Assembly: GCA_904066235.2 (NCBI GenBank)
Contig: CAJFCV020000006.1
Location: 10,106,001 to 10,170,000 of the forward strand
Source: Bursaphelenchus xylophilus
Lineage: Eukaryota > Nematoda > Chromadorea > Rhabditida > Aphelenchoididae
Length of the DNA: 64,000 bases
Direction of reading: 5' to 3'
A program made the translations under genes and the position numbers. This document shows, piece by piece, positions 8,501-59,945 of the stretch (position 1 is its first letter; each line of letters begins with the position of its first letter). The notes under the pieces are model-generated. The model did not search any database. It had not been told where the DNA came from and was given only the letters and a program-made list of their open reading frames with translations.

Positions 8501-11500
8501 ATGGGTTTAGGTGGATTTATAAGGGAGATTCGGATGTTTAAAGGTAGTATTGAGTAGATGGGATTGAATTTGAGGTATATTTTGTATATATACACCTATT
8601 TTTACTACATTTTTACCCAAAAAATGGGGTTTTTGCAAAAACTTTGCCGTAATTTCATTTTGAAAATTGCGTATGTTAAAAAATAAGCTTCGCTTATATC
8701 CCTCGACTATCCCCAACGTCCGCAGCCCCGTTTATTTGTGCGTGGGATGGCGGAACCGGAACATTGCCTCAGGCAAAATTAATTTATATCGGCCAAACTT
8801 GGAAATAAAAGTAATGTAAACTGTTCGACTTTCCCTCAGACGGGTTCAATTCGGGTTGCAGAAAATACGGCGGAATTTTTAATGGCGATTAGCGAACTTT
8901 AACTGTTGGAGTGGCCGTCCAGAAATATGTGAATTTTTTTGCAGAAGATTATGTTTGAATAGAAAATGTTGGTGCTTTTGGAGAGAATTCGCCTCTCTAG
9001 ACTTGACGAGAAGCAGGGATATTCTTAGAAGGGACTTGAAACCTTCTTTGGACAGTAATTTATGTTGTAGTAGGTCTGCTGATGGATTTTGTCGATTTTG
9101 GGCAGAAAATTGGGGGTTTGATTGGTAATTTTGGGTTTTTTGGAGACTAGAATCTTCGGAGAAGGCTGAAATTGGCGGTTTGATTAGCAGAGAGAAGTTT
9201 AGTTGGAGTTATGGGCATCTATTTATATTATACTAGACAAATAAGGAGTCATTTATGATGGATTCGTTTTTCGTATAATTTATAATTTTTAAGCCTATTG
9301 ACTCTTCTTATTTACGGATAGCTATAATATGACCTCACGGTTGGCTAGGAACGCCATTAGAACGTGTTTGGTACAGTCACACACACGTGTGTTATAGTGT
9401 TATCTTCGAAATGGTCATATGATCGGATAATGCCGTCGAGACAAACCAGTGGCTATATAAATTGCGTAGATTTTTCAATTTTTGCTTACTCCTTTGTTTT
9501 GCGAAGATATTTTCGCGGATCTTCAGCTACGATAAGCAAGATTCCATAAAATGCGTCATGATGACATGTTTTTAGGAGTGAGATATAGGGATGTTTTGTG
9601 GTTGAGCGAGTGTGTTATGAGCTGTCAGATATGAAAATAAATTTTTTTGTTTCTGGGAGACTGTAAACGGCATGTTATGCTCTTTGGGATGACGCATTTT
9701 CTGGAATGTTTTGTTTTTCCGTTATCAATTTTATGCCACGTTTCGCAACGACGTTGATAACCTGCAAAATTAATTGAGGAGGTTATAAACGTGTTGTTTT
9801 GAATGATCAGCCCTCATGATGTTTTCGCAGACGAAACTTTGTACTTGTCACGCTAATTTCATTGGGGAATAGAATAGTCTTTTCTTTCTCCACCACTGAT
9901 ATTCCTCCCACCATATTAGACGGCTTGAATAAGAACATTCTCGCCGAACACCCTTTTCACGCTCCCCTATTATCGAATGGAAAACGGTTTCCATTCAGAA
10001 TGTTATGTTATTCATGGTTTGGAGTGGGCGTCTGAAGAAACCCCCTCCCTCCTTCGGGGATCGGCGGTTGAGGTGCTGGAGTCCAGAATTGGCTTAGAAT
10101 GTTCGAGGAATAAGTCGGTGATCGGTTCTTCGTAACGGCACGGTGCGACGGGTAAATAAAGTCGGACTGCACTGTGCGGAGGAATTTATTTCGAAAGTTG
10201 AGCAGGGGAGAGAGGGTGGTTGGGGGAGATTGGTGGTTATAATGTGTGTTGTGGGTTACTGTAACGGATAAGGCATCAAATTTTTTCGTTTTTGAGGTTT
10301 GGACAGCACTGCGCGGCAAAATTTGGAGTTTGCACAGTGCAGTGAAAATTGAACTGTGTATTGTGAAGGTAATATTGGGTATGATGGTTGTGTTTTGTGG
10401 GTTTGAAGAACTTGTTGGGTTACTGTATCCACCGAAAAGATCAAATTTTTATTTTTGGCAGTTTGGACTGCACTGTGCGACAAAATTAAAATTCTGCACA
10501 GTGCAGTGGATAAAAAACTGGTTTATGTGCAAAAGAAGGACGAGACTGGGAATGTAGCGGCATTAGTAGTCCTGTCATGTCGTATTAGCCCTAAAGCAAA
10601 CCAATTCTCCTTCCAAAATTTTTAAAAGGAGCGAAAATTTTGCAAAAATTTCTCTAGCACGGTTCGATTACCATATTTTTTGTGGCACAGTGCAATATCA
10701 TCTCTATTTTGGATTTTGTTTTGTCGGTTGACCCTTGGGATTTCTTCTTATGACCTAAAGTCTCAATTTCCATCAAAACTCAATCCAGAAAACGGGTCTT
10801 GGCCTAGAGTTTCGCCCTCTGAAATTACAGAATAAGCCCTCGAAAACCGAAAAAGTGTGGGAATATTTGCGTCCAGTAACGCCCCGGCCTCTTCACATTG
10901 TCAAATATGGACTTTTGAGTTCGAGGTTTGGTATAAAAATTGAAATTTCTACGAAATTTTTTGTTTTTTTGAACTTTTTCGTGCGCAAATGAAATTAATC
11001 CGAAAATAGCTGCCAACGTCAGACAATGCCCATTATTGGGCTGTCATTTCGGCAGCAGAAAAAGTTGTGAAAGCACTCGTTATTCTCGGGTAGTTTTGGA
11101 AATTGGTTTTGGAAAGACAAAGAGGAAGAAAGGCTGTTTTTGGAGGGGAAATTCAAGTTGGTTTAGTTGGATTAGAATGTGGAATTGTAAAAAGTTGTAG
11201 AAAGTCATGTTTTAGAAGAGAAAATCTTCTGAAATACGATAAATATTTTGTAAAAAACGGAAAAGCTATTATGGTTAGCTGTTTTATAAATTTTTCACCA
11301 AGAAAACAGTGGTCATATTTACGTCGTTGGAGAGACCGTGAATCAACGCCCGAATGGCTAAATTTGGAATGTCGAAATGCGGTTTCAATTTTGAATATTG
11401 AAAAAAACTTCTGTAAAAAGTTCTAGAAAGTTGTATTTTAGAAGAGAAAATGGTTCTAAAATACGATAAATATTTTGTAAAATACGAATCTTGATTGTGT

Positions 11501-14125
11501 TGAGTTATTTTATAATTTTTCACCAAGAAAATCTAAAATAAAATCAAGAAATCTCTAAATTAATGCCCAAATAGAGAATTTGCAAGTTGAACTTGCAATT
11601 CGAAAGGAAAGTTTGTCAATTTGAGACGATTTTTGGGTAATTTGGACATTAATTTAAAGATTTTTTGATATTATTTTTGGTTTTCTTAATGAAAAATTTG
11701 TAAAAGAGCTAAACACAATCAAGTTCCTTATTTTACAAAATATTCATCGTATTTTAGAACCATTTTCTCTTCTAAAATACGACTTTCTGGAACTTTTTAC
11801 AGAAGTTTTTTTCAATATTCAAAATTGAAACCGCATTTCGTCACTCCAAATTTAGCCATTCGGGCGTTGATTCACGGTCTCTCTCCAACGACGTAAATAT
11901 GACCACTGTTATAAGCGCCTTAGGCAAAAGGATATTAATTTTTTTGGTTTTCGCAAAGTTTTATTCCGTTTTTAACTCCGAAAGAGGGTTAAATCTTTCA
12001 TTTAGAGGCAGTCGGGGAGTGGAAGGCTGGACTCTTTAGATGGTTGGGGTTTATAAACCAGAAAAATGGTTGTTGGAGTACTAGTCGCGGCAAAAAGTCC
12101 TTAGAATTTTTCGCGGCCCCCAAATCTCATCGCACCCCGAAATGTTGATTTGTCGCGGGAATCGCGCGCGACAATAAGGCAAAAACAAGAAAATTGCACT
12201 GTGCAAAAGCACTTTTCGGGTTCATGCACAGTGCGGAGTCGCAGAAAATTCTAAGGACTTTTTGCCGCGACTAGTACAGTAACGGAAGATTTTAGTAAAG
12301 ATTTTGGGATTTTTAGGGAATAATTTTAATTTTTTGAAGGATTTTTGCCTAAATTAATGTAAATTTTGGTATTTCGAATTTTTCTTATACATATTTTACA
12401 ATATTTTTTGACTTTTTACTTCGTATTTTAGCTTCAGAAATTGTGTTTTTTACCCGATTTTAAAAAGAATTTCTTATTGTTTCCCCAATTTTCCCCTCTT
12501 TTTTGACCAAAAATTTTAATTTCTCCCATTTTCAGCTGACCTTCCACATCATTCAAGACACTAGAATGGCCGCCACCACCTCCAGTTGCATCCAGAAACA
12601 GCAGCGAAGCAAGAGCGAGTCGCGCCGCATCTGTTTCACGGAAGAACCGCCACAAGTTTTCGCCTACCCCGACGAGAACTTTGCCATGGAGCTGGGCGAG
12701 TGGAAAGAGGGCCGCCCCATCACCTACAACGAATACCAAAACATTGTCCAAACCGCGAACGAAGAAACCCAACATCAAATGAATCAACTGGCCCGCTGGC
12801 GACACCAAATGCAGCTGAAATACTCCGAGCAGGAGCGAGCATTGGAAGGTAAATTTATTTCTTGCGACTTTTTGGGAAAGCTTGTTTTTGCACTGTGCGA
12901 AAAATTTTTTCCAAAGCACTGTGCAATTGATGGAATGCACAGTGCAAAAATTTTGAATATACGTTTTTGCACCGTGCGGATTCAGGAAGTTGTTGGATGC
13001 ACTGTGCATGGATTTGTCGCAAAGATTGCACAGTGCAAAATTTTTTTGAAAGATTTGGTTTGCACTGTGCGGGCGATTCTTCGAAAATGCACGGTGCGAA
13101 GTTTTGCGACAAACTTTTTGCACTGTGCGAAAGATTTTTTCCGACGCACAGTGCAATTGAATCTGTCGCACGAACGCACGGTGCAAAAATTTTTGCAAGA
13201 TTTGATTTGCACTGTGCGGGTCAGAAAATTGTTGGATGCACTGTGCAAAAAGACGTTTTTTATCGCACAGTGCTTCGATTTGTCGCAGAGATTGCACAGT
13301 GCAAAAAAATTTTTTTGAAAGATTTGGTTTGCACTGTGCGAATTCCGAAAATTGTTGGATGCACTGTGCAAAAAAGCATTTTTTTCTGTGGCACAGTGCA
13401 TGGATTTGTCGCGGAGATTGCACAGTGCAAAATTTTTTTGACTTAGTTTTGCACTGTGCGGGTCAGAAAATTGTTGGATGCACTGTGCAAAAAACATTTT
13501 TTTTTTTCTATCGCACAGTGCTTCGATTTGTCGCAGAGATTGCACAGTGCAAAAATTTTTTTGAAAGATTTGGTTTGCACTGTGCGAATTTTATAAAACT
13601 TTTTCTGCACTGTGAAAATCTTGCACGGTGCAAAAATCTTTTTGAAACGCACTGTGCATTTTTTTGTCGCAGGAATTGCACAGTGCAAGTTTTCTGAAAA
13701 TAAAAATTTTGCACGGTGCGGTTTTGAAATTTTTTTCCGCACAGTGCGAAAATCTTTTTGAAACGCACTGTGCAATTTTTTGTCGCAGGAATTGCACAGT
13801 GCAAGTTTTCTGAAGATAAAAATTTTGCACGGTGCGGTTTTGCAAAATTTTTCTGCACCGTGCAAAAACAAAAACGTATTTTTGCACAGTGCAAATTTGT
13901 TGCTAGATGTTGCCTGACGTTTGTATTTGACCTAAAATCTTACTAATTTCACCTCAACTTTCAGACGCCGTCCACCAAATGAACCAAGCGGCCATAAACT
14001 CGGTGGCCAGCACCCCTCCCGCACCCCCACCCCCACCTCCGCCATCTAAATGGCCCCCTCCGAAAAGCCGTGCCAAAGATCCCTTATTTTGCGGAAATAT
14101 TTATTCTCAATTATCATGTGATTAA
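2531..14125 (+). CDS. Unknown protein with coiled-coil and proline-rich tail (six-exon model)
   Basis: Exons are 2531-2672, 2942-3246, 3621-3716, 3809-3898, 12536-12848 and 13965-14125. All phases agree, giving 1,107 nt and 368 aa ending in TAA. The N-terminus is MSFLFDTFRPSNKNFLDSFY. Residues 48-110 are Ser/Thr-rich. Acidic LEII segments occur twice (SLEIISESD and SLEIINDPQE). A helical stretch follows (EKLLAPIRQSLLHLVAEED), then a basic part with RRICF at about 241-245, which resembles an RVxF protein-phosphatase-1 docking motif (inference). Residues around 275-330 are Gln/Glu-rich and likely coiled-coil, and the tail holds a run of prolines and PPPKSRAKD. I do not recognise the family. The intron of 8.6 kb between exons 4 and 5 is unusual. 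Phase 0 fits on both sides, but two separate genes are possible: exon 5 has its own ATG at 12566 only 30 nt after a TTTTCAG acceptor. Confidence 0.7.
3899..5090. other. Intronic or intergenic stretch without clear genes
   Basis: No exon with good splice sites is visible on either strand. A TATAAAAG sits at 4947-4954, preceded by a GC-richer stretch. Further TATAAAAG words occur at 5229 and 5398. They would suit promoters for the coding-like segments that follow, but the match is short and unproven. Confidence 0.4.
5100..6927 (+). pseudogene. Scattered coding-like segments: small gene or decayed gene
   Basis: Four plus-strand stretches look protein-coding. First, 5100 onward gives MKSISEQLASGDLQNYAEIG and continues to about 5233. 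Second, 5567-5770 gives SKQALCRMLIELPEPADLNL, then AELTRYLWRSLHF. Third, about 6000-6050 gives MKLFSLWANKAQFLEAFWDI. Fourth, about 6695-6768 gives FTPTKCNVMKLARIRREVQL, joined by a GT...CAG intron to KFLADFQPENANSS and a TAG at 6925-6927. Phases can be made to match, but two of the acceptors would be AAAAG rather than TTTCAG, and a stop codon sits immediately before the first ATG. The MITE at 6306 lies between segments three and four. It may be a degraded gene nested in the large intron. LIELPEP faintly recalls RhoGAP helices, which is not enough to name it. Confidence 0.3.
6306..6547. mobile_element. MITE, TA-flanked, family C copy 1
   Basis: A 242 bp hairpin element that begins CAGAGACCTGATGCAGTGGC and ends with the inverse (GCCACTGGATCAGGTCCCCG...CACTG), with TA on both sides. 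The two arms nearly meet, so the single strand would fold into one long stem. A diverged second copy lies at 23686-23931. There is no coding capacity. Confidence 0.8.
6930..11300. other. 4.4 kb stretch without a recognisable gene
   Basis: Either the interior of the large intron of the 2531-14125 gene or a spacer. Open frames are short and unsupported by splice sites. The least noise-like is a 69-codon plus-strand frame at 8070-8279. A small inverted pair of AAAATGCGTCAT...ATGACGCATTTT lies at about 9551 and 9690. GCAC-N-GTGC palindromes begin to appear near 10,170-10,510. A local duplication of the sequence around 11180-11290 recurs at 11407-11530. Confidence 0.45.
11305..11910. repeat. Inverted repeat, about 200 bp arms
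   Basis: The arm at 11305-11500 begins AACAGTGGTCATATTTACG, and its inverse ends at 11910 (CGTAAATATGACCACTGTT). The loop is about 210 bp. The arms match closely over their length and include the word GTAAAATACG. It is probably a non-autonomous transposon or fold-back element. I could not define a target duplication. Confidence 0.75.
12078..12277. mobile_element. 200 bp MITE-like element with perfect 33 bp terminal repeats
   Basis: Positions 12078-12110 (GTACTAGTCGCGGCAAAAAG...) and 12245-12277 are exact inverse copies over 33 bases. The interior is GC-rich and holds a run of CGCGCG-type sequence and two GCAC-N-GTGC palindromes. No coding capacity. The family is not recognised. Confidence 0.75.
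12890..13890. repeat. Palindrome array GCAC-N-GTGC in the last intron of the 2531-14125 gene
   Basis: The intron 12849-13964 is almost entirely made of the 9-bp palindrome GCAC-N-GTGC flanked by T or A runs. Start positions read consecutively are 13331, 13361, 13391, 13420, 13451, 13480, 13513, 13542 and 13577, so spacing is 29-35 bp. A higher-order unit of four sites repeats every 120 bp (13211, 13331, 13451), sharing spacers such as AGAAAATTGTTGGAT and GATTTGTCGCAGAGATT. The centre base is T/A or C/G. Long open frames across this array on both strands are artefacts of the repeat. Confidence 0.95.
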
Positions 14126-14496: not shown

Positions 14497-17400
14497 CTAA
14501 AACAATAACCAAGCCGCGACCAATAACAAAATAGCGTTGTACTGGAGAGATAACGCGGACTTTGGAGCTGGTGTGGGAGTATTATCGCCACCATCACCAG
14601 TTGAGTCGGTCGTATCATCTTCTGGAGGCGTCGGCTCCGGAACCAATGGCCCAATCGTTGGCTCGAACGGTCGAGCCGGCTGATCCACCAATTCGGGCTC
14701 GTATTGACCTGAAAATAAAAGAATTAGAGGCAAAATAACAATTCTGCTTTTAAATTTTTTTTCTAATTTCCAAGCTTACTCAATAATCTCGCCGGTTCCG
14801 TGGAATACGGTATTTTCTCGCTGATATTCTTGTGGTTAATAAAGTTCTCCAGCAATTGCAACGAGGCCAGAGGTCGATCCAACGGGACGAAATGGCCACT
14901 TCCTTTGATTGTGACCAAATCCAAGGAAATTCCGTCGAATTTGAACTGTTTTCGGAAGCCGGCCACCGATTTTTTGCCATTTTTGGGGAGTTGGGCATAC
15001 CAGGGATGGCGGGGGATGGTCACCTGAAAATTTTGGGGGGATTTATGTTGTAGTAGGATAAAAAATTTGATTTTTTAATATTCAAATTTTTTAATTAATT
15101 TTTTAAAATATTTCAAATTTTTATTAATTTTTTGAATATTCAAATTTTTAAATTAATTTTTGAATATTCAAATTTTTAAATTAATTTTTTGAATATTAAA
15201 ATTTTTTAATTAATTTTTTTGAATATTCAAATTTTTTAATTAATTTTTTGAATATTCAAATTTTTTAATTAATTTTTTTTGAATATTCAAATTTTTCAAG
15301 CCAAAAATTGCAAATTCCTCACACTAGCCTCTCCTTTGTAATTCTGGCTCAATTTTTCCACAAAATATTCGGCTTCTTTGAAGCCGCACACCAGGTCCGT
15401 ATCTCCATTATAAATCATCATCTTGAAGACATCCTTGTTTTCTTTCGCGTATTTTGAATCCAAGATATCATAGAACACTTGCGACATATCTCCATCTGCA
15501 GTGTTGAATTGCATGGTGTAGTTGTCGCCAATTCCGCCGCTGAAAATTTTTCGAAAATCAAAAAAATTGTAAAATCAAGTGAAAATTGCGGAATAAAATT
15601 AATTTTACAGAGCCAAAAATTATTTCAAAATCATTGCACTGTGCTCTTTCCAAAGCAACAAATTTATTTTTTACTGCACAGTGCAAAAAATCCAAAAAAT
15701 CGATTTTTCACAGAATTAAACAGTAAAAATTAAAAAAAAATTTTTGAAACTTTTTAGACAGTGATGTCATTCGGTAAATCGCATTTCCAAATTTATTGCA
15801 CCGTGCAATTTCCGAGAGATTGCATTTCAAAATTTTCTGCACTGTGCGGACGCCAAAATAGGCTAAAAAACGCGCCGCACGGTGCGAAAATTTTAAACCT
15901 CTAAATTCTTTCAATTTTTGCGTTATGCAAGCTACAGAACTATACTAGAAGAAATACTTACTGTGCAATCAATCAAATTAAATTGATTTTTCGCTGAAAT
16001 TTCAACTATTCCCAGTCAAAATCGCTATTTACCTGCACATTTCCCAGTCCTGAACAAATTTTGGGACATGGATTGCTTCTCGGACGTGTTCTTGGTTCAA
16101 ATAGTCGGTCATCTTGTCGAACACATAGCATCGAAGGCCTCCATTTGCGTCCGATGAGGCATAATTGATCCGCGCCCTCAGGGAGTGATGCGAAGCGGTG
16201 GCCAAATCTCCATCGAGATAGTGTTTTTGGGCCAAGGAAAGCGATTCAATCGATGATAAAAGTGTTTGCTGGGAATAAAATAGCGAAATTACATCTAATT
16301 TTACTGATTTTTTAGCCAAAAATTCAAATTTCAATTTTCCCGCTAACAATTTCAATTCTTGGCATTGTGCATCAAGTACCGAAAAAGCTGAGAAAGTGAT
16401 TTTGCAGGTCCTAAAAACCCTTCTACTCGTTTTAGAGAGCATTAAAGGACCTTTCAAAAGCTTGCAACACAATGCCAAGGGTTTTGAAATCTGGCGGGAA
16501 ATTCAAATTTCAAATCAAATTTTCGACTAAAAAATAGTCAAAAATAAATTAAAATTTTCATGAATGCTTTCTAGGCAACTAAAACTAATTTTACCCCACC
16601 TAAAACAGAATGCCAAGGGCTTTGCGATTTGGCGGGAAATTCAAAATTTCAAATTTATTTTGCCGCAAAAACGATTTTCAAAATAAGATGATCCTAAAAT
16701 ATCATCTAAATCCATCAAGAACACAATTTTATTTTCCCTTGCAACACAATGCCAAAAAAATTCAAAATTTCTTTCCAAAACCAAACTTTTCGTATAAAAT
16801 GTCGCCTACCTTCACTCCATTATCGCGTTGCATGAGGACCGACTTGCCAGTGTGTTCGTAGCACTGTTGAATCAGATTGTACGGGTCGAAACTCTCGATG
16901 CTCCACAATTCTCTCATCTTTTTATCGCAAGTTTCGGTCAAATTCACGGGCATTGGGCAGAGTTCGGTTTTCGAGTCGGGACAACACTCCTTCCGGATCG
17001 AAAGGAACTCTCTGAAAGACAAAATCAGGTATTATAACAAAACTTGGAAAAGAATTTGGCATTTTTTCGGCTTACTTTTTACCAATGAGACCATGTGTGT
17101 AGCTGTAATCGACTCTAGTGGCGCGCTGAAAAGAAAAAAATAGTTTTTTTGTCCATAAACATTGATTTACGGTCCAATTGCACTGTGAAGAACCAAAATT
17201 TTGCAAAATTTTATACCTTTTTTGACAATATTTACCTACTACAATATAAATTGATGTCCAAAAATTCTTCAATACAAACAAAAATTCATTCAGAAGCCCA
17301 TATGTGACCTTAGCTTTCGATAATGTTCCGTTTCTCCTCATTTTTACTTACTATAATACAAAAAAATCGCAAAATTTTTGCCTACTACAATATAAATTAA

Positions 17401-20400
17401 TATCCAAAAGTGCAGAAAATGATCCTAAATAATAACCACAGTTGCCAAAGTTCCTAAAACTCCCTAAATTTTTCATCTTTACACTACTACAATATAAAAA
17501 AAGTAAAAAAATTATATCTACTACAATATAAATTAATGTCCAAAAGTGCAGAAAATGGTCCTAAATACTATCCACAGTTGCCCAAGGGCCTAAAACGCCC
17601 TAATTTTTTTACCCCTAGACTACTACAATATAAAAAAAATCAAAAATTTATGTCTACTACAATATAAATTAATCTCCCAACCCGCTCAAAACCCTTCCCA
17701 AGCCCATTCAATCCCCTCAAAATTGCCAAAACTCTCCAAAAAATTCATTCTTACCGCTCCTTCGACGCTCACATACGGATTTCCAACCAAAAATCCTTTA
17801 AAATCCAGTGGTACCCCATAAAAAATGCCTCGATTCTCCTTGTCCAGCTCCTGAAGAATCCTCCTCGTCAATGCGGGTACATAAACGCCCGCATAGCTCT
17901 CTCCAGTGATATAAAAATCATTTTTGATTTCGTAAATTTTCAAAAATTCCCTCAGGGCAAGGAGAACATCCTCCGTAGACTTTTCATCATTGAAATTGGT
18001 GTCCTTATTGTCCTCATGGTCCTGATACGAGAAGCCGACGCCTCGCGGAGACTCAATGTACAGCACATTGGCCACTTTGTTCCATGAGAACACGTTCTCG
18101 AACAGCGTCTGCCCGTCCGGATTCACGTAAAATGGGCCATTCTCGCCGAAGAGCGCGCCCAAAGACGAGCAGCCCGGTCCGCCGGTCAGCCACAGGAGCA
18201 GGGGGGCGTTTTTCTTTTGACTTTCGACAAACCTGAAAGAAAGAGGGGCACAAATGGGGAAAAAATAAAAAAATTTGGTTTCGGCACAGTGCAAAAAATA
18301 TCTTTTTTTTTAGCGTGCACAGTGCGTAGTAAAAAAATTTTTGTTCGCATTGTGCAAATAAAAATTCAAAAATTTTGCACCGTGCAAACAAAAATTCAAA
18401 AATTTTGCACCGTGCAAACAAAAATTCAAAAATTTTGCACTGTGCAAATAAAAATCAATACTAAAATTTTGCACAGTGCACAAAAATTCAATGCTAAAAT
18501 CTTGCACTGTGCAAAAATCCAGAAATTTCGCACTGTGCGAAAAAAATCAATCCTAAAATTTCGCACCGTGCGAAAAGAATGAGCACTAAAATCTCGCACA
18601 GTGCAAACAAAAATTCCGCACCGTGCGAAAAACATCTATACTTAAACTTCGCACGGTGCAAACAAAAATTTGGAAGATTTGCACTGTGCAAAAAAATCAA
18701 TACTAAAATTTCGCACTGTGCAAACAAAATTCGAAAATTTTGCACTGTGCGAAAAAAAATAAATACTAAAATTTTGCACCGTGCACAAAAATTCAACATT
18801 AAAATTTCGCACTGTGCAAAAAAAATTGAGAAATTTCCCACCGTGCACAAAAATTGAACATTAAAGTTTCGCACTATGCAACGACAAAAAATTTTAAAAA
18901 ATCACCATAAACAAATTTTACCCACTTCAACTACAATGTCTGCTTCTGCGTATTTTACCTTCAATTTTCCCCCAAAAATCTCATTTTTTTCTTACCAATA
19001 ATGAAGGTAATTTCCCTTGGAGACATTCAAATATCCAGAGTGTTGCTCGAATTTGGGCTGGAAAGTGAGGCCGGGCAGGTTGAAGATCTTGTCCATGGCT
19101 CGGCGCGGGGCTGAAATTTTGAGTATCGATCAGAAAATTGAAAAATTTAAAAAAAAAATTTGTCAAAAAAATTTTTAAATATGCTGGAAAATAGGAATAA
19201 AACATAAAAAAAAAATAATTTTTTTTTCCGAAAAATAAATAAGTTCTAAAATGCTGTAAAAAATACCTCAAAAACTTCTAATCTCAATTTTTTCCCTTAA
19301 ACATTTTTTTTTAAATAAAAGAATTCGTATTTTACGCAATAAATTCAAAAAAAAAATAAAAAAAAAAAAAAAAAAAAAAACTCAAAAATTCCCAAAAAAA
19401 CTCACGCTTTGGTATGTACGAAGCCGACGGCTTGGCCGGCAATAATTTCAGATCCTCCCAACTCAGCGGGGTACTGTAGTTAATGCGGGCGGAGTTTTGG
19501 CGAACAAAGTTTGCGATCATTTGCAGGGCGATGGGAGCGCGGTCCTGCGGGACGAAATGACCGCCTCCTTTGACGGTGAGAAAGTCCAGAGAGGTGCGAT
19601 TGTTGCGGAATTGGCGGACGGTGCCGGCCATTCGCGGGAAGTAGAGGCCGGAGGTCTTCTTGGGCTCGGAGAAGGTCCAGGGCTCGGCCGGCTTGGGCAG
19701 GAGGCCTCTTTCTGTGGCTAGTCTGAAACGAACGGCTCAGAAATTCATCGTATTTTACAATTATTAAAGATTTTTTTTACGATTTTTCAAATTTCCAAAA
19801 AATAAGTCATCATTACATGTTTTGTTTCTCATTTTTTCAACATTAAACTTCGCCATGGGACTTGTTATGGCACTCAGAACGTAACAAATTTTTATCCGCC
19901 CAATAGATGACCAAAATCCAGGAATTTTTTGGATATTCCAGAAAATGCGTCATAATGACTCATTTAATTACTATTGTTTTCGATGTATTCTCTATCAGCA
20001 AGAATTATCATGCGTTCAAAAAGCCGTTTTATTTTTATCGCTCTTTAAAATCGTCAAATTCCCTCAATTTTCCCAAATTTCCAGAAAATCCGTCATGATG
20101 ACATCTTCAATTACTCATTTTATCCCAAAACTTTTTACTAGCCTGTGTTCTACGTTCTAAAGCAGCCATATAAAAAATTTTCAAACGGTAACATCCCCAC
20201 TTTAGGTGACATAATTAATGTCATCATGACGGATTTTTTGGACTTTTATAAAAATCGAAGAAAACCAAAAATCAGCTCCAAAAATGAGCTTACCGATAAA
20301 GAAACCATTCATTTCCAAGGTATTCACAGGCCAAATCCGCGTCTCCATTGTAGACCAGCGACTTGAAATTGGTGATTTTCAGTTTTTCCAGCAAATCCAA

Positions 20401-23400
20401 GATCTCGTCCCAGACGGGGCGGGTGTCATGGTTCTGTTGGATGTAATTTTGGTTCATTTCATCACTAAATTGAATCAAAAAAATTTTATTTTCCACTCAC
20501 TTGCAGCCTTCCCATTTGATCTCTCGATTCACATGTATCAACTTCTTGATTGCGGCTTTGTTCAGGAATTTCTCGGTCACTTCGCTGTCGTAGCATTCGA
20601 ATCCGCCATGGGCGTCGGTCGAGTGTTTGTTGTAGAGTTTCTGAAGTCAAAAGTTTGATAAAAAATCGATAAAAAATTTGCACTGTGCAATAAAAAATAA
20701 ATCTTTTTTCTGCACAGTGCAATCGAAAAAAATTAAAAAATTTATTTCCTCGGGCATAAATAAGATCAAAGTTTTTCTTTTTTTCTACTGTGCCGAAAAT
20801 TCTCATACATTTTTGACATGAAAAAAAATTTTTTACTTTTAACCGCACGGTGCGATCCAAAATTAGAAAATCCTTTATCGCACCGTGCAAAAAAGAGAGA
20901 AAAATAAAAAATGCCCTGAGGCAATAGTGAAGACCAATATCCTCCTCTTCGGACACTATTCCAAAAATTTCTTCACAGCTCCACTGCACAGTGCAAAAAA
21001 GTTAAAAAAACCCTTGCACAGTGCAAAAAATAAATGAAAAACAGCTTGCACAGTGCATAAAAAAGTAACAAAATTTCGCTTTCCGGGCCAAACCAAACAT
21101 AAAATCTATCATATAGAAAACCCCAATAACTATTTCTTAAAAATCAAACCCAACTTCAACAAAAAACTCACTGCTTCATCAACAAAAGTGTAATCTTCGG
21201 AGAGGCCGAGTTCCTTGAATCCGGCTGACCTTTTCGTTCTGAACACTTTCTTTCCTGCTGCTGCATTCACTACTGACTTGAAGGATGAGGAAGCGTCGTC
21301 TTTGTAACAGTCTTGGTAGCTGTTGTACACCGATACTCTGAAATTTTTTAAATCGGAAATTTTTATTGAGGTACTACTAAATGTTGCTTAATTTTTACCT
21401 CGTGCTATATAGTACCACCTCGTACTATGCAGTACCAAGCGCTAAAAACATGTTTTTTGAGCAGTACTGTGCACCAAACCAACTGCATTAACAACTGAAG
21501 GCATCATTTTTAATTGTACTATCTATTATATTATAGTATCAAGGCCTAACCTTCAACATCGTATTTTACAATCAAAAATAACTAACTAAAATACGGTAGA
21601 ATGTAATAAAAACCATTTAGAAGCCAAATTCGATCATTTAAAATTCAAATTTTTGAATTCCCGCCAAATTTTAGAAATTTTGGCATTCCGTTGCAAGGCC
21701 GATTTTTGATGGAAATGGCTTAACAGCGATCCTACAAGTCTCTACAGTATCAAAGCAACAAATAAACTCTACCAAAGCACCTCTAAAACCTCAAAAAATC
21801 TCCAAATTTTGTCAAGTGTAATATAAAAAGTATTGCCCAAACGGTAGACAAACCAGTTCAAATTGGTTAAATAAAACCTACGTTGACTCCCAAATCTTCC
21901 AGAAGCCATACTGATCCACCAGCTCAGCACAACGCGCTGATTTAGGGTCTTCAAAGTGCCTTGGCTCCGAATCCCCGTTCTCCTTGAAGTGGACGTAACT
22001 GCTCAGATTACACTCTTCTGGACGTCTGGTATCGTTACAACATGAGAGAATCTCTTCGTAAGTCCTGTAAGGTCGAAATTAAACTTTTCTAATTTTGCAT
22101 GATTGCACAGTGCGAAAAAATTTAAAAAAAATGAAGTAAATACCAAAACATTGAATAAAAAAAGGAAAAAACATACTCTCTGTCGTAGAATCCTCGGTAA
22201 TACATCAGATGGACAGCGGAATTGACCTGGTCAAACCTGCTGAGCATTCCGTTTCCAATCGCAAATCCTTTCAGGTTGAGGTCTTTCATTGGGGAATTGG
22301 GGGTCTAAAACAGAAATATTTTAATTTTGAGACCCGTAAAAAAGCATGGGGACAAACAAAATTCAAAAAAAAAAAAAAAAAAATCAAAATTTCACTTTCG
22401 AAAAACTCGATTTTTTTTCATTTTTACCGCACTGTGCAAAAGATAAAAATGTTCAATGCACAGTGCAAAATAATAAAAGTCAGAAAAATTTAAATTTAAT
22501 CCCGAAATTTCCGTTCGGACGCATAATATTGCGTAAAAAATCATCAAAATTCGTTGCACACTGCAAAAGCCCCAAATATTTTAACCGCACAGTGCGAAAA
22601 TTAAAAATCTTTACTGCACAGTGCAGAATTGGAAAAATAAAAAATTTCAAACCAATTTCGCCTCAAAATTTCTTGTTAATCCATGACACAACAGCATGGC
22701 CATCATACTGCTCTGCACAGTGCGAAAATTTCAAGCGCTTGGCACCGCACAGTGCAGCGTCAAAAATCTTTACTGCACAGTGCAGAAATCAAAAAATCCA
22801 AAAATTTCAAAAAGATTTCGCTCCAAAATTTCTTGTTAATCCATGACACTACATCATGGCCATCACACTTCTCTGCACAGTGCAAAAATTTCAAAAGTTT
22901 TTGACCGCACTGTGCAAAACCAAAAAATTTCCGCAACGTGTCTAAAAACGTAAAAAACCAATAAAAAACCTTACCGTTTTCCTTCTCAAAATTTCCCTGA
23001 CCAAAGTTGGGACATAAATCCCGCCATAACTCTCGCCAGTAACATAAAACGGTCGTCCTTTGAACTCGGGAAATCGTTCCAAGAACTTCTCCAAGGCATT
23101 CGCGTTTTCCGCCGCGGTTCGATCATCATCATACGGCTCGGTTTTGTTCGGATTCGACGAATACGAGAAGCCGACGCCTTGCGGCGCCTCGAGGAACAAA
23201 ACATTCGCGACTTTGGTCCAGGAGAACCGATTCTGATCCAGTCTTTGGGCATCTCTCGTGGCATGGAAGAGGCCGAGCTCCTTGAAAAGCCCGCCCAACG
23301 ACGAACAGCCGGGTCCGCCGTTCAGCCAGAGGATTAGAGGCGCGCTGGGGTCGGTGTTGTGCCGACTCAGCCAGTAATGCAGATGCACGTCGTCGCGGGC

Positions 23401-45455: not shown

Positions 45456-46699
45456 TCAGTCCGGGGACATAATCCAATAAAATCTCGGGCTGAACGGCTG
45501 ACGGAAGTGGGGGTGGATGAGGTCAATGGCGAACAGCAGCTCTTCGGCGCCCTCAGGGCTTTTAATTTTTGCAGACTGCAAAGAAGCACTTTTTGACCCA
45601 AATAACTCAGTTTTCAGCTGATCCGAAAGTGTTGTCTGATTTTTTTATTTTTTTAAAAGTTTGCACTGTGCAAAAAAAAATAAATTTTATCGCACAGTGC
45701 AGAAAAAATTTTTTTGATTTCTGCACGGTGCGGTCCAATTTTTTGGTTTTTTGGTTAAAAGTTGTGTTTGTTTTTTAAAATTAGGTGCAAAATTAAGATT
45801 TTTAAAACATTTGCGATGCTCTAAATTGAGCTACAAAACGTTTTTTTTTTTTAAAACTGAAAAAAATCACTTAAAAAATTTTTTTTATTTTGGTCGTATA
45901 AAATGCCCCTGTAAAAAATGTATTACAGACTTTTTTTGAAGGTAAAATACGAGTTGGCGGTCCAATTCTTTCAGTGATAAAATTCCTTCGGCACAGTGCA
46001 GATGAAAATTTTCGAATTTTGCTCGATGCGCTTTAATTTTTTTCGAGATTTTTTTTATTTTGAAGATTTTGCTACGGATTTGCAATTTTTAAAATACTAG
46101 TAGTGCTGTAATTTAAATTTTAGATATATTTTTTATGCTAAAAATCCAAAAATACAAAAAAATTTTTTATCGTATAAAGTGTCTCCTATAAGAAAGTTCA
46201 GTAAAAAAAAATTTTTGAAGGTAAAATACGGAGTTGCAAGATGTTATATAAAGTTTTAGCTCACTCTTTGTTTTTTCCAAAAAATTTTTGCAATATTAAT
46301 TTAGGTTCACTCAACTTCAAAGCAAAGGCAATTCGACCGTTTGACGAGTAATTGGGAAAACTCGTACGGGTCAAACATTCTTCTCGGTTATACTTTTTGT
46401 CCCAAAACAACTGATCCCCACCCCCGACAGTTTCAGGTCCTCTCCGGCTGTTTCGTTCGGGCCAAATTAAAGTTTTGAGTTATTTTTTGGGGCGTGGGAG
46501 AAATTTGTGACTCGCTTTGTAATGCTTTATTGCCTTTGGAAAGGTCGGAGAGCCAAAAATTTTCGAAATTTTTGTTTGCACGGTGCAAAATTTTGAAATT
46601 GGTTTTGCACTGTGCGAAGAAAACAAAAAAATGTTTTCTTACACTTTTATGAACTCCCAGTGGCTCAAGGATAATATTTCTGGCGTTATAACCATCCAT
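45456..46699 (-). CDS. Candidate two-exon gene for a 58 aa protein
   Basis: Exon 1 46643-46699 (MDGYNARNIILEPLGVHKS) ends at a good GTAAGA donor. Exon 2 45456-45575 follows a TTTGCAG acceptor in the same phase (SAKIKSPEGAEELLFAIDLI, then HPHFRQPFSPRFYWIMSPD and TGA). Both parts are GC-richer than the surroundings and read like protein. The 1.07 kb intron carries GCAC-N-GTGC palindromes, as in the confident genes. I do not recognise the family. It lies on the same strand and 2.7 kb upstream of the carboxypeptidase gene. Further small exons could be missing, or this could be a remnant. Confidence 0.4.
45655..45745. repeat. Three GCAC-N-GTGC sites
   Basis: Sites at about 45662, 45692 and 45722, exactly 30 bp apart, in the intron of the candidate 58 aa gene. 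Confidence 0.9.
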
Positions 46700-47610
46700 G
46701 TTATCACAGGGAATTCAAATGTAACCCATTTCTTATATGCACAGTGCAAAATTTCAAAGTTTTTAAAATCCGCACTGTGCAGAAAAATTTTTGGAATTTC
46801 GAAAAATTTGGAAGCCCTTAGGGTCTAAGACATGGCTCGGTATCATTTTTATTCTTTTATACAACTTGCTTTTATAAAAATTTTCAGATCATTTTGACTG
46901 CACAGTGCAAAACAAAAAATCGCCTAAATTTCGCACTGTGCGGGGAAATTTTTGAAATTTCGAAAAATTTAGAAGCCCTTAGGGTCTAAGGCGTGGCTCG
47001 GTATCATTTTTATTCTTTTATACAACTTGCTTTCATCAGAATTTTCAACTCGTTTTGACTGCACCGTGCAAAAGAAATCATCTAATTTTCGCACTGTGCG
47101 GGGAAAATTTGTTGTTTTTTCTTGTTGAACAATAACTTCTCGTGATCACAAAATATATTTTTTTTGCAAGGAAACAATATTTTCCTTATAAAAAAATTTT
47201 TTGAATGGTAAAAACATTGCACTGTGCAAAATAAAAAAAATCGGTCAAAAGTCATTTTTTGCACAGTGCATTTTTTCCATTCCTTCTTTTTCTTAAAAAA
47301 TTTGGCCATATGAAAGTCTCGTTTGTCTCAGACTCTTGTCTCAGTCGTTTTTAATAAAAAGACACTAGGATTTTTCCAATTTACGTCTGGAATTTTTTAA
47401 ATTTTCATTTTCAAAATTTTTTCACAATGCAACCGAGAAAAAAGATATTTAGACATTTCGTATTTTACAAAATTAAATTTGTAAACCATTTTTAAAAACA
47501 CTTCGACGTATTTTACCCAATTTTAACTCTTCTATTTTCGATTTTTTTTTCTTTTTCCGCACCGTGCAAAATCCTTGATTTTTTGCACTGTGCAAAAAAA
47601 ATTTTTTCAA
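46575..47610. repeat. GCAC-N-GTGC sites with a local 180 bp duplication
   Basis: About a dozen sites. The segment GAAGCCCTTAGGGTCTAAG...ATACAACTTGCTTT at about 46810 recurs near 46971 with the neighbouring palindromes. Confidence 0.85.
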
Positions 47611-48150: not shown

Positions 48151-48735
48151 ACAGGGTGGTTTTTTTAACCGCACGGTGCGATTTTTTGGAAATTTTGCAC
48201 TGTGCAGGTAAAAATTATGGAAATTTTCGTGGCTTTCATGCAAAATTTTTTTTAATTTTACTGCGATCACACGTATTAGGGACTATTTTACCCCTTTCCC
48301 AAGAAGAAGCATGCTTTTTGCATTGCACTGTGCATTTTTTTGAGTCTTGATTTTTTGCACTGTGCGATAAAAAAATTTGTCAAAAATTACGTTATAACAT
48401 GCAAAAATTTTTGTCGATTCTTTGTTTATCGCATTTATCAGATCTTATTTTATCACCGAGTCCATAATAAATAATCGTTTTTTTGTTTTGCACAGTGCCG
48501 TTTTTTGGGTTTTGAAAAAATTGCACCGCGCAGTCAAAAAATCACTTTTTTAATGCATTTTTATTAAAATGTTGGCTCCAAATTTTGTGTACTTTTGGCC
48601 GTAAATCTTTTTTTTAACTTTCTTATCGCTATTTTTGTAAATTTTTCCTTTTGCACAGTGCAATTTCCATAAAAAATTTTCGCACTGTGCAGATTCATTT
48701 TTTTGATATTTCTTTGCACTGTGCAATCATAAATG
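48150..48735. repeat. GCAC-N-GTGC sites upstream of the membrane-protein gene
   Basis: Around ten sites at irregular distance between 48170 and 48727, some decayed (GCACCGCGC). They stop about 190 bp before the start codon of the gene at 48917. Confidence 0.85.
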
Positions 48736-51900: not shown

Positions 51901-53809
51901 AAAAGATTTCACTTCAAAAAAATGTTTTGACGGAAGAATGACATAACAATAAAGTTTTAGGGTAAAATACGGAGTACCCTTTTATTATTTATCTTTTGGT
52001 AAGATTTTGATGTCTTTTTGTCACGAAAACCTTAGAAATTTTGTTACTAATCATCGATAGCAAAAAGAATTAATTTTTATTTATTTATTTTTTTGATAGA
52101 AAATAATGTATTTTATCAAAATATTTTCAAAAATGGATAAAGCCGCAAAAAAATGTGTAAAAAAATTGGTTTAAAATATATTAAAATATTTAGGTTACTT
52201 TATGATAAAGTTTGGTAACTTTTATAAGAATAGCATATATGCAGAAAAATTCCTCTTAAAATTTATTACTATATACTTTTTTCCATTTTTGAATTGGAAG
52301 CTATCTTATAAAAAATACGAATATATTTAAAAAACCGCAATTCTTTTTGCAGCAACCTAAGTGCAGCTCTTGCCCTAAAATTTTCACTATTTGATTTCTG
52401 GCCCACATAGAGCACATTTGCCAAATTTGAAGAAAATACAACGGTATTGCCTTGAGCAATTCACTTTTTTAAGCAAAAAAAGTTTTCATCGTATAAAATG
52501 TCTCCGTCCGAGACAAATCTGAAATCTGAACTTTTGGGGTAAAATACGGATTCGCGAAGCTATTTTATTTTTTCAAGCAATTTTACACATCAATTTTTGG
52601 CAGTATTATTTTACAGTATACTTAAAAAAAATGTTATTTTTTTCTCAAATTTAATTTTCAGCCTAGCCGAGTTCCTGGCCAACTTCCAGACCGAGACTGC
52701 CAAGAATTGCGCGTACGGTTACTTTTTCTTCACCGGCGTCTCCATGCTGGTCTACGTCTTCGAGATGGTTGATGTCTGTTTGACCCTAAAACATGACGAA
52801 GAAGATGTTTTCTTCGCTCGGCTCGCCAAATCGTTGGTTCTTTGTTGTGAGGAGGTCCCATTGCCTGCTCTGTTGTATGTATTGTTCACAACTGAGCCAA
52901 GATTATCGTTGGCAGACCCGGTTCACATTGCCTCGTGGATCAAACTGATTACTTTGAGCTGGGGAATTGTAAAGTTCAGCAAATTGAGGTTTTTCTGGCC
53001 ATTTTTGGTGTGCAATCCGAAACATGAGCGACGGTAAGTAGTCATTTTTAAGGATTGAAATTTTTATTTTTTCAAAAATTTGGAAAATTATTTTTTGCAC
53101 AGTGCAGATTTTCGAAGCCAATTTTTTTGCACGGTGCAAATTTTTTACAGCTGTTGCACCGTGCGCATATTTCAAAATATATTTTTTTTGCACTGTGCAA
53201 TTTTCTTTTTTTTCAATAACTCTTTTGCACAGTGCAGACCCAACAAAGATTTTTCTGCACAATGTAAATTTTTTTACAGCTTCCGCACAGTGATGTTTAA
53301 AAATATCTTCTTTGCACAGTGCAATTCTTTAATTTTTCTGCACAGTGCTGTTTTTTCACTCAAAAACTTTTTCGCACAGTGCAGATCAAAAATTTTTTGC
53401 ACAGTGCGTTTTTCGGAAATTTATTTTTGCACCGTGCAGATTTTTTATCAAAAAACTCTTTCGCACAGTGCGGATTTATCAAAAATTTTTTTGCACAGTG
53501 CAGTTTTCTTTATTTTTTCTTTGCACAGTGCAATTTTTTCGGACATTTCTTTGCACTGTGCAGATTTTTTACTAATGTGAAAAAAATTGTTTGCACTGTT
53601 CTGGAGATTAATTTTTATAACAAAAGTTAAAATCGCAACTTTTTTATCAAAATTTTTTTAGAGAAAACATCCGTCGGATGTTCAACTTCACCCTGTATCG
53701 ATGTGCCATGGTCTTCGTCAACATTTGTCACTTTCTAGCCATTTTCATCGTCATCAACAATTTGATTGCCTCGGGCAAAGGCGGCAAGCCAATCACTGCG
53801 CGGCATTGA
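48917..53809 (+). CDS. Multi-pass membrane protein of unknown family, 235 aa
   Basis: Exons 48917-49005, 51550-51648, 52662-53033 and 53662-53809; all junctions have GTAAG donors and (T)AG acceptors and keep phase, giving 708 nt and a TGA stop. The N-terminus is short and basic (MTISLKLPKRRDRSPSIGRR). Hydrophobic segments lie at about 41-60, 79-105, 117-140, 155-172 and 198-222, so four or five membrane passes. Notable residues are two Asp in the first segment (LDLFADF), a CCEEVPLPALL motif around 124-133 in the third, and a basic end PKHERR before the last. Arrangement vaguely recalls XK-related or similar small polytopic proteins, but I cannot name it. An acceptor CAG at about 48767 suggests a 5' untranslated exon or a trans-splice site. 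Introns contain transposon debris and a palindrome array. Confidence 0.85.
50280..51065. mobile_element. Probable element with CCCGAATATACCC-type subterminal repeats
   Basis: Clusters of GGGTATTT/ATACCCGAA words lie at 50285-50352 and, inverted, at 50985-51060. Outer ends are roughly inverse (CTACGGGTTCGG against CCGAACTCTA). This is reminiscent of hAT-type subterminal repeats, but I could not find a matching target duplication. The mariner fragment at 50750-50965 lies inside. Located in intron 1 of the membrane-protein gene. Confidence 0.5.
50750..50965 (-). pseudogene. Mariner transposase, C-terminal fragment
   Basis: On the minus strand an open frame ends at a TAA (50750-50752) and reads AYSPDLSPTDYHFFKHLDNF followed by LQEKCFKNQDDAKTAFADFI and a typical end WQKCVDSNGSYFD. 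YSPDLSPTDYHFF is the block holding the last catalytic Asp of mariner (DD34D) transposases. The frame is intact and GC-rich over 72 codons, but everything N-terminal is missing, so it is a 5'-truncated recent copy. Confidence 0.9.
51236..51360. repeat. Tandem repeat of about 20 bp (CCCCCTACGTTTTAGA)
   Basis: Five to six units of GCCCCCTACGTTTTAGATCA-type sequence with small changes, in an area rich in C runs (51130-51480). Open frames here come from the repeat. Confidence 0.85.
53095..53605. repeat. Palindrome array GCAC-N-GTGC in intron 3 of the membrane-protein gene
   Basis: About fifteen sites with 25-32 bp spacing; spacers are TTTTTTC-ACTCAAAAAC-like and related to each other. Confined to the intron and ending about 50 bp before the acceptor. 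Confidence 0.95.
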
Positions 53810-53949: not shown

Positions 53950-53955
53950 ATTAAA
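53950..53955 (+). terminator. Candidate polyadenylation signal of the membrane-protein gene
   Basis: ATTAAA, about 140 nt after the TGA stop. A common variant signal, but short. Confidence 0.35.
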
Positions 53956-54128
53956 CTTTTACTACATAGTTGGCGCAGGAATTCGTGAGACTTTTATGCA
54001 CCGTGCAAGTTGTTTCATTGCACCGTGCTTTTTCCATTTTTACGTGAAGAACTTTGTCGCGTCTTCAGATAGGCGAAATGCTTTGATTGCGACAAAAAAT
54101 GGAGGAAAGCGGCCCTGTGCTGAGTTTT

Positions 54129-56525: not shown

Positions 56526-56539
56526 TAAATTTTGCTCAT

Positions 56540-57360: not shown

Positions 57361-57810
57361 TAAGATTTCTTTTCTTAATCTTTTCCAGTTTTTCCCTTTT
57401 CCACAATCTTCATATTACACTTGACACTCCGCTAATCCTCTTCCTCAAAAAATTTATAATTCCACAACCAGCCATAAAGTTGATCGATTTACGGCTTCGG
57501 GGATTTGAAACAGGAAGTCCGACGGGGATTACGCGCGGATATCGCTTCTAATCTGTTTGTTTATCCCGACTTTTATCCTTAATCGGAATTCCCCAGCCCA
57601 GAATCTCTCGCCGACTTTTCGGGTCATTGCGCTCGTCTCGCCGCGGCCCTTATTAGGCCAATATTTGGGTCGCGATCTTCGTTAATCTGCAACTGTTTCT
57701 TGCGCACTTCAAATTGGCGTTTTTAGGGGCCGAGAAGTGACGCTTTTATTTACGATATTATAATATTTTTGGGGATGTGAGGGGGTGAAAAGTTTATTTT
57801 TGAAATTTTT
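57361..57810. other. Relatively GC-rich spacer, possible promoter or untranslated exon
   Basis: Between 57470 and 57720 the sequence is less AT-rich and has no obvious repeat, with CGCGGATATCGCTTC and CTCGTCTCGCCGCGGCCC. No open frame with splice support. It contains CATATTACACTTGACACTCC at 57412. Confidence 0.35.
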
Positions 57811-57814
57811 TTTG

Positions 57815-58510
57815 TTGCACTGTGCAAAAAAGGAGAGAAAATCAGCTGCACTGTGCAAAAAAAAGAAGGGGAAATTGTTGCATTATGCAAAATTAGGAGT
57901 AAGAATAGACCTTGTGAGACAAAAAATCTCAATTTTCTAAATGAAAAAAAAATCAAAAAATCTCAAAAAAAAAATTTTTTTTCGCACTGTGCAAAAAAAG
58001 GAAAAATCTTTTGCACTGTGCGAAAAAAACGAAAAACTTTTGCACTGTGCAAAATTAAGGGTAAAAATTTGACATTATAAGACAAAAAATCTCAAATTTC
58101 TATGAGAAAAAAAAAAATAAAAAAAAAAAAAAAAAAAAAAAATTTTGGTCAAAAAAATTTGCACTGTGCAAAACACCGAAAAATCGTTCGCACAGTGCAT
58201 AAAAAAGCCTTTTCTTTCGTTTTTTCTCTCTGGAATTTTGCGACAAACAAATCGCAAAAAATTACGAACGATTTCTTCTTGCACCGTGCAAAAACAAGGC
58301 AAAATCTTATGCACAGTGCACATGGAAATCCATTTCTTTTTCTTTCTCATCGCCATTTTTGTGATAAAAAACTGCACTGTGCGGTTTTCACGGGCTTTTT
58401 CACAGGTTTCTTTGCACTGTGCAAAGTCTCAAACATTGATTTGAATTTTGATTTTTTTGTTGTGGCAAACTCCAAAGAAGAGTGAGAAATGTGTGCACAG
58501 TGCGAGTGAA
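57815..58510. repeat. GCAC-N-GTGC array with duplication
   Basis: About a dozen sites. The phrase GACAAAAAATCTCAA-TTTCTA recurs at 57917 and 58080 together with neighbouring palindromes. A run of 40-odd A interrupted by single T lies at 58107-58142. Confidence 0.85.
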
Positions 58511-58639
58511 GATAGATTTTTTGCACGCTGTAAAACTTTTCATGCAAAATTTGCAAAAAAATTGTTGCATTTTGCCAAATCTCCGACAAAAAATCTCGGT
58601 GGTTCATTTGATTGCAAAGCTGGGGGTGTCTCATATGTT

Positions 58640-58715
58640 TTAGAAAAGCTGATTCTAAATTTTTGGCAAGCTTTTATCAAAATCTGAGCGTCGCAATTCG
58701 GGTATCTTCCCTGTA
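58640..58715. repeat. Fragment of the MITE family A-related repeat
   Basis: CAAGCTTTTATCAAAATCTG AGCGTCGCA...TTCCCTGTAA matches the ends of the repeats at 57100-57140 and 57310-57360. Confidence 0.45.
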
Positions 58716-59210
58716 AATCTGACAAAAAACATTTTTGATTTTTTTGTCGCAAAACGGAATTTTTCGTTGAAACTTTTTTCCGTATTTTTTCTCCAACAAC
58801 ACCTCATTCTCCCAATTACCGCCAGTATCTTCCAAAATTTTCGTTTTTTTTCAATTCCAGTAATCTATCCCGCAGCCGTTCGCCCTCATTTTCCCTTTGT
58901 TTCCGCCCGTTCTTTGGCCGGTTTTAACTTAATTTCCTCGTTTCCAAAAGGAACGAAACATTTAGAGGACACTAAAGAACTAAAAGGAGACTGCGCAAGT
59001 TTTTTTGCTCGAAAGACTAGTAAAAGGGGTTCTGGAGGGATGATGGAACGGTCTGGAGACTTTGGGATTTTTTGTTTTTGCAGCCATTATAACTCCCTCA
59101 TTTCTCATGCAGCTTGCGTAATAGGCGTGCAATTGAGTATAAAATGGGATGGAGATAGGAGATGATATGCATATATTAGTATTTTCATAAAGTACATGGA
59201 CCTGTGGCAT
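58716..59210. other. Spacer without a confident gene
   Basis: A long open frame (58767-59165, plus) crosses it, but no splice sites or recognisable motif support it and codon composition is mixed. I do not call a gene. Confidence 0.4.
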
Positions 59211-59224
59211 CCCGCATCGTGCAC

Positions 59225-59945
59225 TAAAGACCATTTGTTGCACTGTGCATTTCACTTTTTTGGGGTTTTGCACTGTGCGGCGGAATATTTAGTATCGCTG
59301 CGATATAAACAAGATTCAAGTTTCAACTCCGTCGCTGCGACATCGCCAGGATGCGCACAGTGCAAATGACTTTTTTTTTTTGAGACTTGCAGGGTGCAAA
59401 AAGGGAAAAATTTAAATGCACTGTGCGTTGGCGACAAGCGTGGGAAAAGGGTCAAGATGCACTGTGCAATGGAACATTTCTGATTTTGCACAGTGCAACC
59501 GCTCTTTTTAAGGTTTGCACGGTGCAAAAAGGGAAAAATCCAAATGCACTGTGCAATGAGAATTTTCTGATTTCGCGCTGTGCAACGGCTTCTTTTGAGA
59601 CTTGCACGGTGCGAAAAGTGAAAAATCCAAATGCACTGTGCATTGGCGACAAGCGTGGGAGAAAGTTCGGGATGCACTGTGCAGTGGGAATTTTCTGATT
59701 TCGCACTGTGCAACGACTTTTTTGAGGTTTGCACGGTGCGAAAAGTGAAAAATCCAAATGCACCGTGCGTTGGCGACAAGCGTGGGAAAAGGGCCAAGAT
59801 GCACTGTGCAGTGGAACATTTCTGATTTCGCACTGTGCAACCGCTCTTTTTAAGGTTTGCACGGTGCAAAAAGGGAAAAATCCAAATGCACTGTGCGTTG
59901 GCGTCAAAGGTGGGAAAAGGGTCAAGATGCACTGTGCATTGGAAA
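59225..59945. repeat. Palindrome array with higher-order units (128 bp and multiples)
   Basis: Dense GCAC-N-GTGC sites with long conserved spacers, for example GGCGACAAGCGTGGGAAAAG at 59429, 59645 and 59773. Site types keep fixed places in the unit: GCACGGTGC before AAAAAGGGAAAAATCCAAA and GCACTGTGC after it. It is the most homogenised array of the window. Minus-strand open frames of up to 226 codons here are artefacts. Confidence 0.95.

Follow-up and report, generated by a model that had tools for sequence, protein, structure and literature searches.

Why should one short palindrome, GCACNGTGC, recur so densely in the introns and spacers of a nematode locus, and what keeps it intact while the DNA between its copies changes? 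The question arises from a 64 kb stretch of the Bursaphelenchus xylophilus genome (C6:10106001-10170000, hereafter the window), for which the original prediction had claimed a very large number of sites. This is borne out: the window holds 225, or 3.5/kb, against a mean of 0.25 and a maximum of 2 in 100 dinucleotide shuffles, and 221 of the 225 start within 10170-59945. No array coordinate cited in the prediction is off by more than a single base (45663 and 45723 instead of 45662 and 45722). At the centre, T is found in 100 sites, A in 81, and G and C in 22 each. A genome-wide count against expectation had also been proposed; run over 78,253,340 bases in 8 contigs, it gave 41,616 matches, a mean of about 0.53/kb, against 178 for the reversed word used as a control.

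The exact form of the word is sharply defined. With up to one mismatch allowed, the genome contains 60,270 matches and the reversed control 8,238; the surplus over the exact count is 60,270 - 41,616 = 18,654, of which the control predicts about 8,060, leaving each of the 24 one-mismatch variants with some 440 copies above control, against 41,616 for the exact word. This is simple arithmetic, independent of any alignment, and the rarity of one-mismatch forms indicates that there is no cloud of variants around a centre. The half-sites are separated by a single base in 443 cases within 224,104 bp of fetched DNA and by any other gap in 0-4 cases each (1, 443, 1, 1, 0, 4, 4, 4, 2, 3, 0, 4 and 1 for gaps of 0 to 12 in order), four of the fetched loci having been chosen because they bear the word. 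In the same DNA a pyrimidine precedes and a purine follows the palindrome in 396 of 418 array sites, and both edges are also present in 21 of 25 single sites, giving an extended site YGCACNGTGCR; the bases at the left and right edges are not significantly correlated (p 0.11). The T or A runs first described as bordering the sites are therefore only partly right: A is indeed the commonest base at symmetrised position +5 (A 71%, G 27%, 439 sites), but the flanks are more specific than that, being Y before and R after. Dyad symmetry and a fixed distance between half-sites, together with the constraint described below, are the properties of a site for a homodimer.

When sites were joined at a distance of 200 bp the window resolved into 26 clusters, 16 of which have at least three sites and together hold 210 of the 225. 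These are given below with one site pair, in window positions; no strand is assigned to any of them.

10138..10693: 6 sites
12196..12234: site pair; the 39-bp stretch is letter-identical at C1:261092-261130
12890..13892: 34 sites in tandem units of 122 and 116 bp, with TTTGTCGC words in the spacers
15636..15885: 5 sites, between two Peptidase_S10 exons (probably an intron, from exon order)
18284..18817: 17 sites in units of about 30-33 bp
20680..21056: 7 sites
22429..22915: 9 sites in a 160-bp tandem unit, adjoining a Peptidase_S10 exon; genome match only at its own locus
25973..26436: 13 sites, between two exons of one Peptidase_S10 gene (a probable intron)
27847..28725: 14 sites in a 162-bp unit, between exons of the same Peptidase_S10 gene as 25973..26436 (a probable intron)
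29743..30652: 14 sites in a 161-bp unit, apparently between two Peptidase_S10 genes, judging by exon order
35576..36438: 25 sites, in a young 125-bp array (96% matches) and then a 96-bp array
45663..45731: 3 sites
46578..47269: 10 sites in a 161-bp unit; genome match only at its own locus
48171..48724: 8 sites, the spacing of which gives a unit of about 154-165 bp
53097..53561: 14 sites in units of 89 and 30 bp
57817..58503: 12 sites in units of 163 and 29 bp
59240..59937: 19 sites in units of 128 and 87 bp; 59720-59900 is one member of a minisatellite family on all six chromosomes

A unit length of 160-163 bp is common to the arrays at 22429-22915, 27847-28725, 29743-30652, 46578-47269 and 57817-58503 despite their dissimilar spacers, with two or three sites per unit and a single longer linker. 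A common 161-bp satellite behind these arrays was considered and rejected, since motif-masked profiles of six arrays of the type, all of which carry the palindrome, cross-match only weakly; their mutual hits have E values of at least 0.014, where the best reversed-sequence control reaches 0.016. The best profile hit outside the six was that of the A48 profile on 36041-36205 (E 0.00033).

The region 14835-33883 carries a cluster of serine carboxypeptidase (Peptidase_S10) exons belonging to several genes, with 13 of 13 supported exons on the minus strand. The 13 Pfam-supported exon spans add up to 3771 bp; with 80 sites in the region, 15.8 should fall on them by local density, and not one of the 225 does. 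The absence of sites from coding exons noted at the outset thus holds for these spans; judged by exon order, the arrays lie in the introns and intergenic DNA of the cluster. GH45 gave 17 exon-level matches in the genome, in keeping, like the telomere repeats mentioned below, with its attribution to B. xylophilus; a COX1 search gave no match.

The contrast between the palindrome and its spacers was measured on paralogous copies within one genome. Copies within arrays, aligned unmasked in 183 HSPs (window, L004, L009, L010 and L016), show differences of 0.7-3.3% at the eight positions of the motif, against 43.5% for the centre and 22% for the spacers. Divided by spacer identity across the window and five loci, spacer rates of 34, 24, 17, 13, 7 and 4% correspond to motif rates of 3.4, 2.1, 1.0, 0.4, 2.5 and 0%, the last two bins being small. 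Motif mismatches number 11/1075 in the 80-86% bin and 1/250 in the 86-91% bin; at 91-95% the figures are 4/162 for the motif and 58/814 for the spacers, a ratio of 0.35, which on such small numbers is the weakest evidence of the series. Since aligners may anchor on the word itself, exact motifs were masked and the copies re-aligned, which left 181 motif pairs, 161 of them exact, seven with one mismatch, one with two and 12 with eight. All 12 of the last are one-base register slips beside an exact motif, so that the motif is exact in 173 of 181 pairs, and they account for 96 of the 105 mismatches in the raw masked rate (105/1448, 7.3%), which is high in L004, L010 and A29. Without the slips, 9 of 1352 motif bases differ, against 39 of 169 centres and 1306 of 8261 spacer bases (15.8%), and anchor bias as the source of the constraint can be rejected.

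The same contrast is seen between chromosomes. In 20 fetched copies of the unit 59720-59900 drawn from all six chromosomes, compared unmasked with the window copy as reference, 4 of 808 motif bases differ, compared with 389 of 1813 in the spacers, 36 of 191 at the edges and 59 of 101 at the centre; 97 of 102 motifs are intact, four have one change and one has a gap. The original claims that spacers diverge far more than the palindrome and that the centre base varies freely thus both stand, and the 9-mer is neither at its expected frequency nor changing as fast as its spacers. Relative to the spacers, the centre varies some three times as much in close pairs (16/55 against 220/2192), an excess that is smaller in the masked pairs and on which we do not rely.

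How widely do the array units themselves travel? Three of the 16 multi-site clusters were represented in a genome-wide search for their units, which skips simple repeats and very common words. Unit 59720-59900 has at least 97 matches on all six chromosomes and in both orientations, among 40 of 461 candidates that were scored, and four of these matches are the window's own array. Units 46764-46925 and 22587-22746 each match only their own locus. The suggestion that the arrays are a spread minisatellite is accordingly supported for one unit of the three searched, and the same palindrome is present in repeats that travel and in repeats that are, within the reach of the search, home-grown. With two of three units private and cross-array profile hits weak, we find no single dispersed satellite or transposon from which the spacers descend.

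Chromosomal position was sampled through rare sub-patterns whose listings span the genome, with matches collapsed to clusters and, for one sub-pattern, its seven C6 rows excluded from the position counts. The middle third of the chromosomes holds 9 of 56, 1 of 25 and 1 of 15 listed clusters (p 0.006, 0.001 and 0.03), and the 96 pooled clusters fall into deciles as 16, 15, 7, 9, 3, 0, 4, 6, 18 and 18. Listed clusters are found on both sides of the middle in all six chromosomes, with two only on the right side of C4 and seven in total on C6. A single site was present in a total of fourteen 2-kb samples, taken at 3 and 6 Mb and, on C1 and C2, also at 9 Mb. Ten 10-kb chromosomal stretches contained 0, 0, 2, 5, 18, 35, 0, 1, 2 and 0 sites, a range which shows that density on the arms is very uneven; the zeros include C4:12.0 Mb, C6:12.5 Mb, C1:14.9 Mb and the left end of C1, where TTAGGC-type telomere repeats mark the start. 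The first 10 kb of contig C7 has no sites and that of C8 has 60. C. elegans repeats are likewise described as rich on the arms and poor in the centre (PMC9071541).

Near the left end of C1, at 100392-107966, a unit of some 2.2-2.5 kb is present four times with palindromes at matching relative places, except that the third copy is without the middle palindrome. At locus L016 on contig C8, 17-bp tandem repeats of the TGGGGACAAAAACGTC type, in opposite orientations, occupy 6144-7351 and adjoin 58 palindrome sites at 1954-5967.

A second site starts 20-45 bp downstream in 25,113 matches genome-wide and in none for the reversed control. In a sample made up of 203 fetched spacers, left from 356 once near-identical ones were merged, and a further 93 spacings taken unmerged from listings, distances up to 45 bp form a single broad hump with a median of 30 bp and a 10-90% range of 25-38 bp, and the shortest distance is 17 bp. 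The 29-35 bp first reported for arrays contains this median but understates the range. The further proposal, that such spacing places sites on one face of the helix, finds no support: phase concentration among spacings up to 45 bp is low (R 0.16-0.19 for all the helical repeats tried between 10 and 11 bp), with no peak at 10.5 bp, where its nominal significance (p about 0.0003) is expected of any single hump, and autocorrelation over 7123 bp of window array gave no AA/TT peak near 10 bp. On these three grounds, broad spacings, unpeaked R and no AA/TT peak in arrays, helical phasing is rejected. An AA/TT periodicity of 10-10.5 bp is present in window DNA outside the arrays.

In proposing what these arrays are, we need to explain a word that is fixed in its half-sites and free at its centre. 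Our contention, to which we would give a probability of about one half, is that they are platforms of putative recognition sites YGCACNGTGCR for a symmetric DNA-binding protein, situated in minisatellites of introns and intergenic DNA, chiefly on the chromosome arms. A symmetric and most likely homodimeric protein would bind the site, selection on binding would keep sites intact, and arrays would grow through local tandem duplication; the role would lie in arm chromatin or chromosome behaviour, whether heterochromatin nucleation, anchoring to the envelope or a meiotic function of the arms. We infer all four of these components, binding, selection, growth and role, from sequence, and the last from the arm position of the sites. 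The free centre, symmetric half-sites, fixed gap, Y/R edges and 17-bp minimum make it likely that a protein reads the word, while copying from a template is disfavoured because a template would fix the centre base. Constraint on the palindrome with drift in spacers and centre is what a homodimer site, as first suggested, leads one to expect. The spacers look largely free, save for the 17-bp minimum distance in our sample and the weaker word GCGACA discussed below. Host selection probably keeps the palindrome intact, but a similar picture would arise if arrays could be copied only with an intact word; low motif rates in fairly close copies, together with private arrays, argue against pure copying. 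A role for which selection must act on each of tens of thousands of sites is a demanding proposition, and copying at the level of arrays could explain part of the pattern.

The main rival to a platform in arm chromatin is that the site is needed for the arrays to spread. The palindrome would then be the target of a nuclease, transposase or recombinase, and intact units alone would be copied, with no gain to the host. We consider this unlikely, though the dispersal of unit 59720-59900, with at least 97 matches spread over the six chromosomes in either orientation, the letter-identity of the pair at 12196..12234 with DNA on C1 and the enrichment on the arms, which fits repeat accumulation, all agree with it. 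It sits poorly with the two private units of the three searched, and the motif is kept in copies whose spacers are 9-20% apart (the 11/1075 and 1/250 above), which implies either constraint after copying or very frequent copying. Nor are spacers commonly inverted, as they should be if a recombinase acted on a symmetric site. Among 4316 comparisons, the 114 similar spacer pairs comprise 108 direct and 6 inverted, all six at the single locus L016, and recombinase inversion is rejected; the 86 direct pairs with a next spacer to compare are colinear in 63 cases, broken in 15 and unclear in 8. Very short non-allelic conversion among copies could maintain the word without selection on binding, and a centre more variable than the spacers (39/169 against 1306/8261; 59/101 against 389/1813) is what exchange in a mixed pool would look like; however, conversion would have to work in tracts only about 10 bp long and at non-homologous sites numbering in the thousands, we know of no machinery for this, and the idea is very improbable.

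Other explanations concern what the sites might do where they lie. They could be enhancers, silencers or insulators of genes on the arms, and several arrays do lie between exons of the Peptidase_S10 cluster, but array length and unit vary from intron to intron and 41,616 sites are very many for a single regulator, so that we regard gene regulation as improbable. Holocentromere units, as proposed for the satellite boxes of Meloidogyne, would have the closest precedent that we found, a conserved box in dissimilar repeats of a plant-parasitic nematode; sampled sites are, however, scarce in mid-chromosome, where a holocentromere should also occur, and we rate this as distinctly improbable. Hairpins formed in RNA between neighbouring sites, the alternative offered in the original prediction, have in their favour that the sites are self-complementary and that some lie between exons, and so probably in transcribed introns. 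Centres of 298 adjacent pairs nevertheless show no covariation (TA 36 against 35.9 expected, AT 40 against 43.9), the array at 35576-35959, in which every centre is T, is intact, and no Rfam family is found in the window at the gathering threshold; with neither covariation nor a family to support them hairpins are rejected, and we give them almost no credence.

A further word deserves mention. Of 169 distinct spacers, 21 contain GCGACA or its complement, where shuffling the spacers gives 4.0, and the density of the word is 4.22/kb in arrays against 0.66/kb elsewhere. Between copies it differs at 16.5% per base, where 13 control words range from 14.6 to 42.5%, a mild conservation. Either an additional site of lesser strength or a remnant of common descent may be involved. 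GCGACA/TGTCGC recurs in the spacers of dissimilar arrays, for example at 13015, 13281, 36223 and 59431. The word TTGCGACAA is about fourfold enriched genome-wide (1757 against 451).

Returning to the reading of the arrays as protein-binding platforms, a stronger version would be that a dedicated Bursaphelenchus protein, a putative DNA-binding factor, marks the arms of all six chromosomes by way of tens of thousands of YGCACNGTGCR sites, which selection would preserve within minisatellites arising repeatedly from unrelated sequence; this is possible but we hold it as doubtful. We know of no animal counterpart to an address system for arm chromatin or meiosis that is encoded in sequence. A word over-represented about 230-fold relative to its reversed form across an animal genome, and near-invariant amid turnover, points to a DNA-binding system not described before, and this in a forest pest of major importance. 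A search of the open literature of 2014-2026 for the whole word, as 9-mers and 11-mers, found no paper, and the titles and opening lines of abstracts on repeats, chromosome arms and satellite DNA in Bursaphelenchus hold nothing on the palindrome. If a role in arm chromatin or meiosis is true, the word would make it possible to approach, from sequence, what marks the arms of nematode chromosomes; should it instead be selfish, the arrays would show minisatellite drive, with its site defined, in an unusually clean form.

The features of the palindrome have partial analogues elsewhere. HIP1 of cyanobacteria is a short palindrome hugely over-represented genome-wide, and the likeness lies in the genome-wide excess of a single short palindrome; HIP1 is bacterial and, to our knowledge, does not occur in minisatellite arrays. 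The PATC of C. elegans introns are periodic A/T clusters, similarly intronic or intergenic and A/T-rich, but the palindrome arrays are without the 10-bp AA/TT peak, no such phasing being found in the 7123 bp of window array. The pairing centres of C. elegans consist of 12-base motifs at one end of particular chromosomes, bound by the HIM-8/ZIM zinc-finger proteins (PMC9071541). They resemble our arrays as short, repeated, clustered words, which in C. elegans are recognised by dedicated DNA-binding proteins; here, a single palindrome is found on both arms, with listed clusters on both sides of the middle in all six chromosomes and no concentration at one end. The nearest likeness is in Meloidogyne, where a CENP-B box-like motif of 17 bp is conserved in 11 divergent satellites, a separate 19-bp box is present in CenH3-associated repeats, and the satellites give FISH signal along the holocentric chromosomes (PMC9673304). 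The present palindrome differs in being a word of 9-11 bp with a free centre, in its 41,616 copies spread over many dissimilar minisatellites and in its bias to the arms, the middle third holding only 9 of 56, 1 of 25 and 1 of 15 listed clusters where a spread along whole chromosomes would be expected. Yet what the two share is the essential arrangement, in a plant-parasitic nematode, of a short box resembling a protein-binding site that is conserved within tandem repeats otherwise dissimilar to one another.
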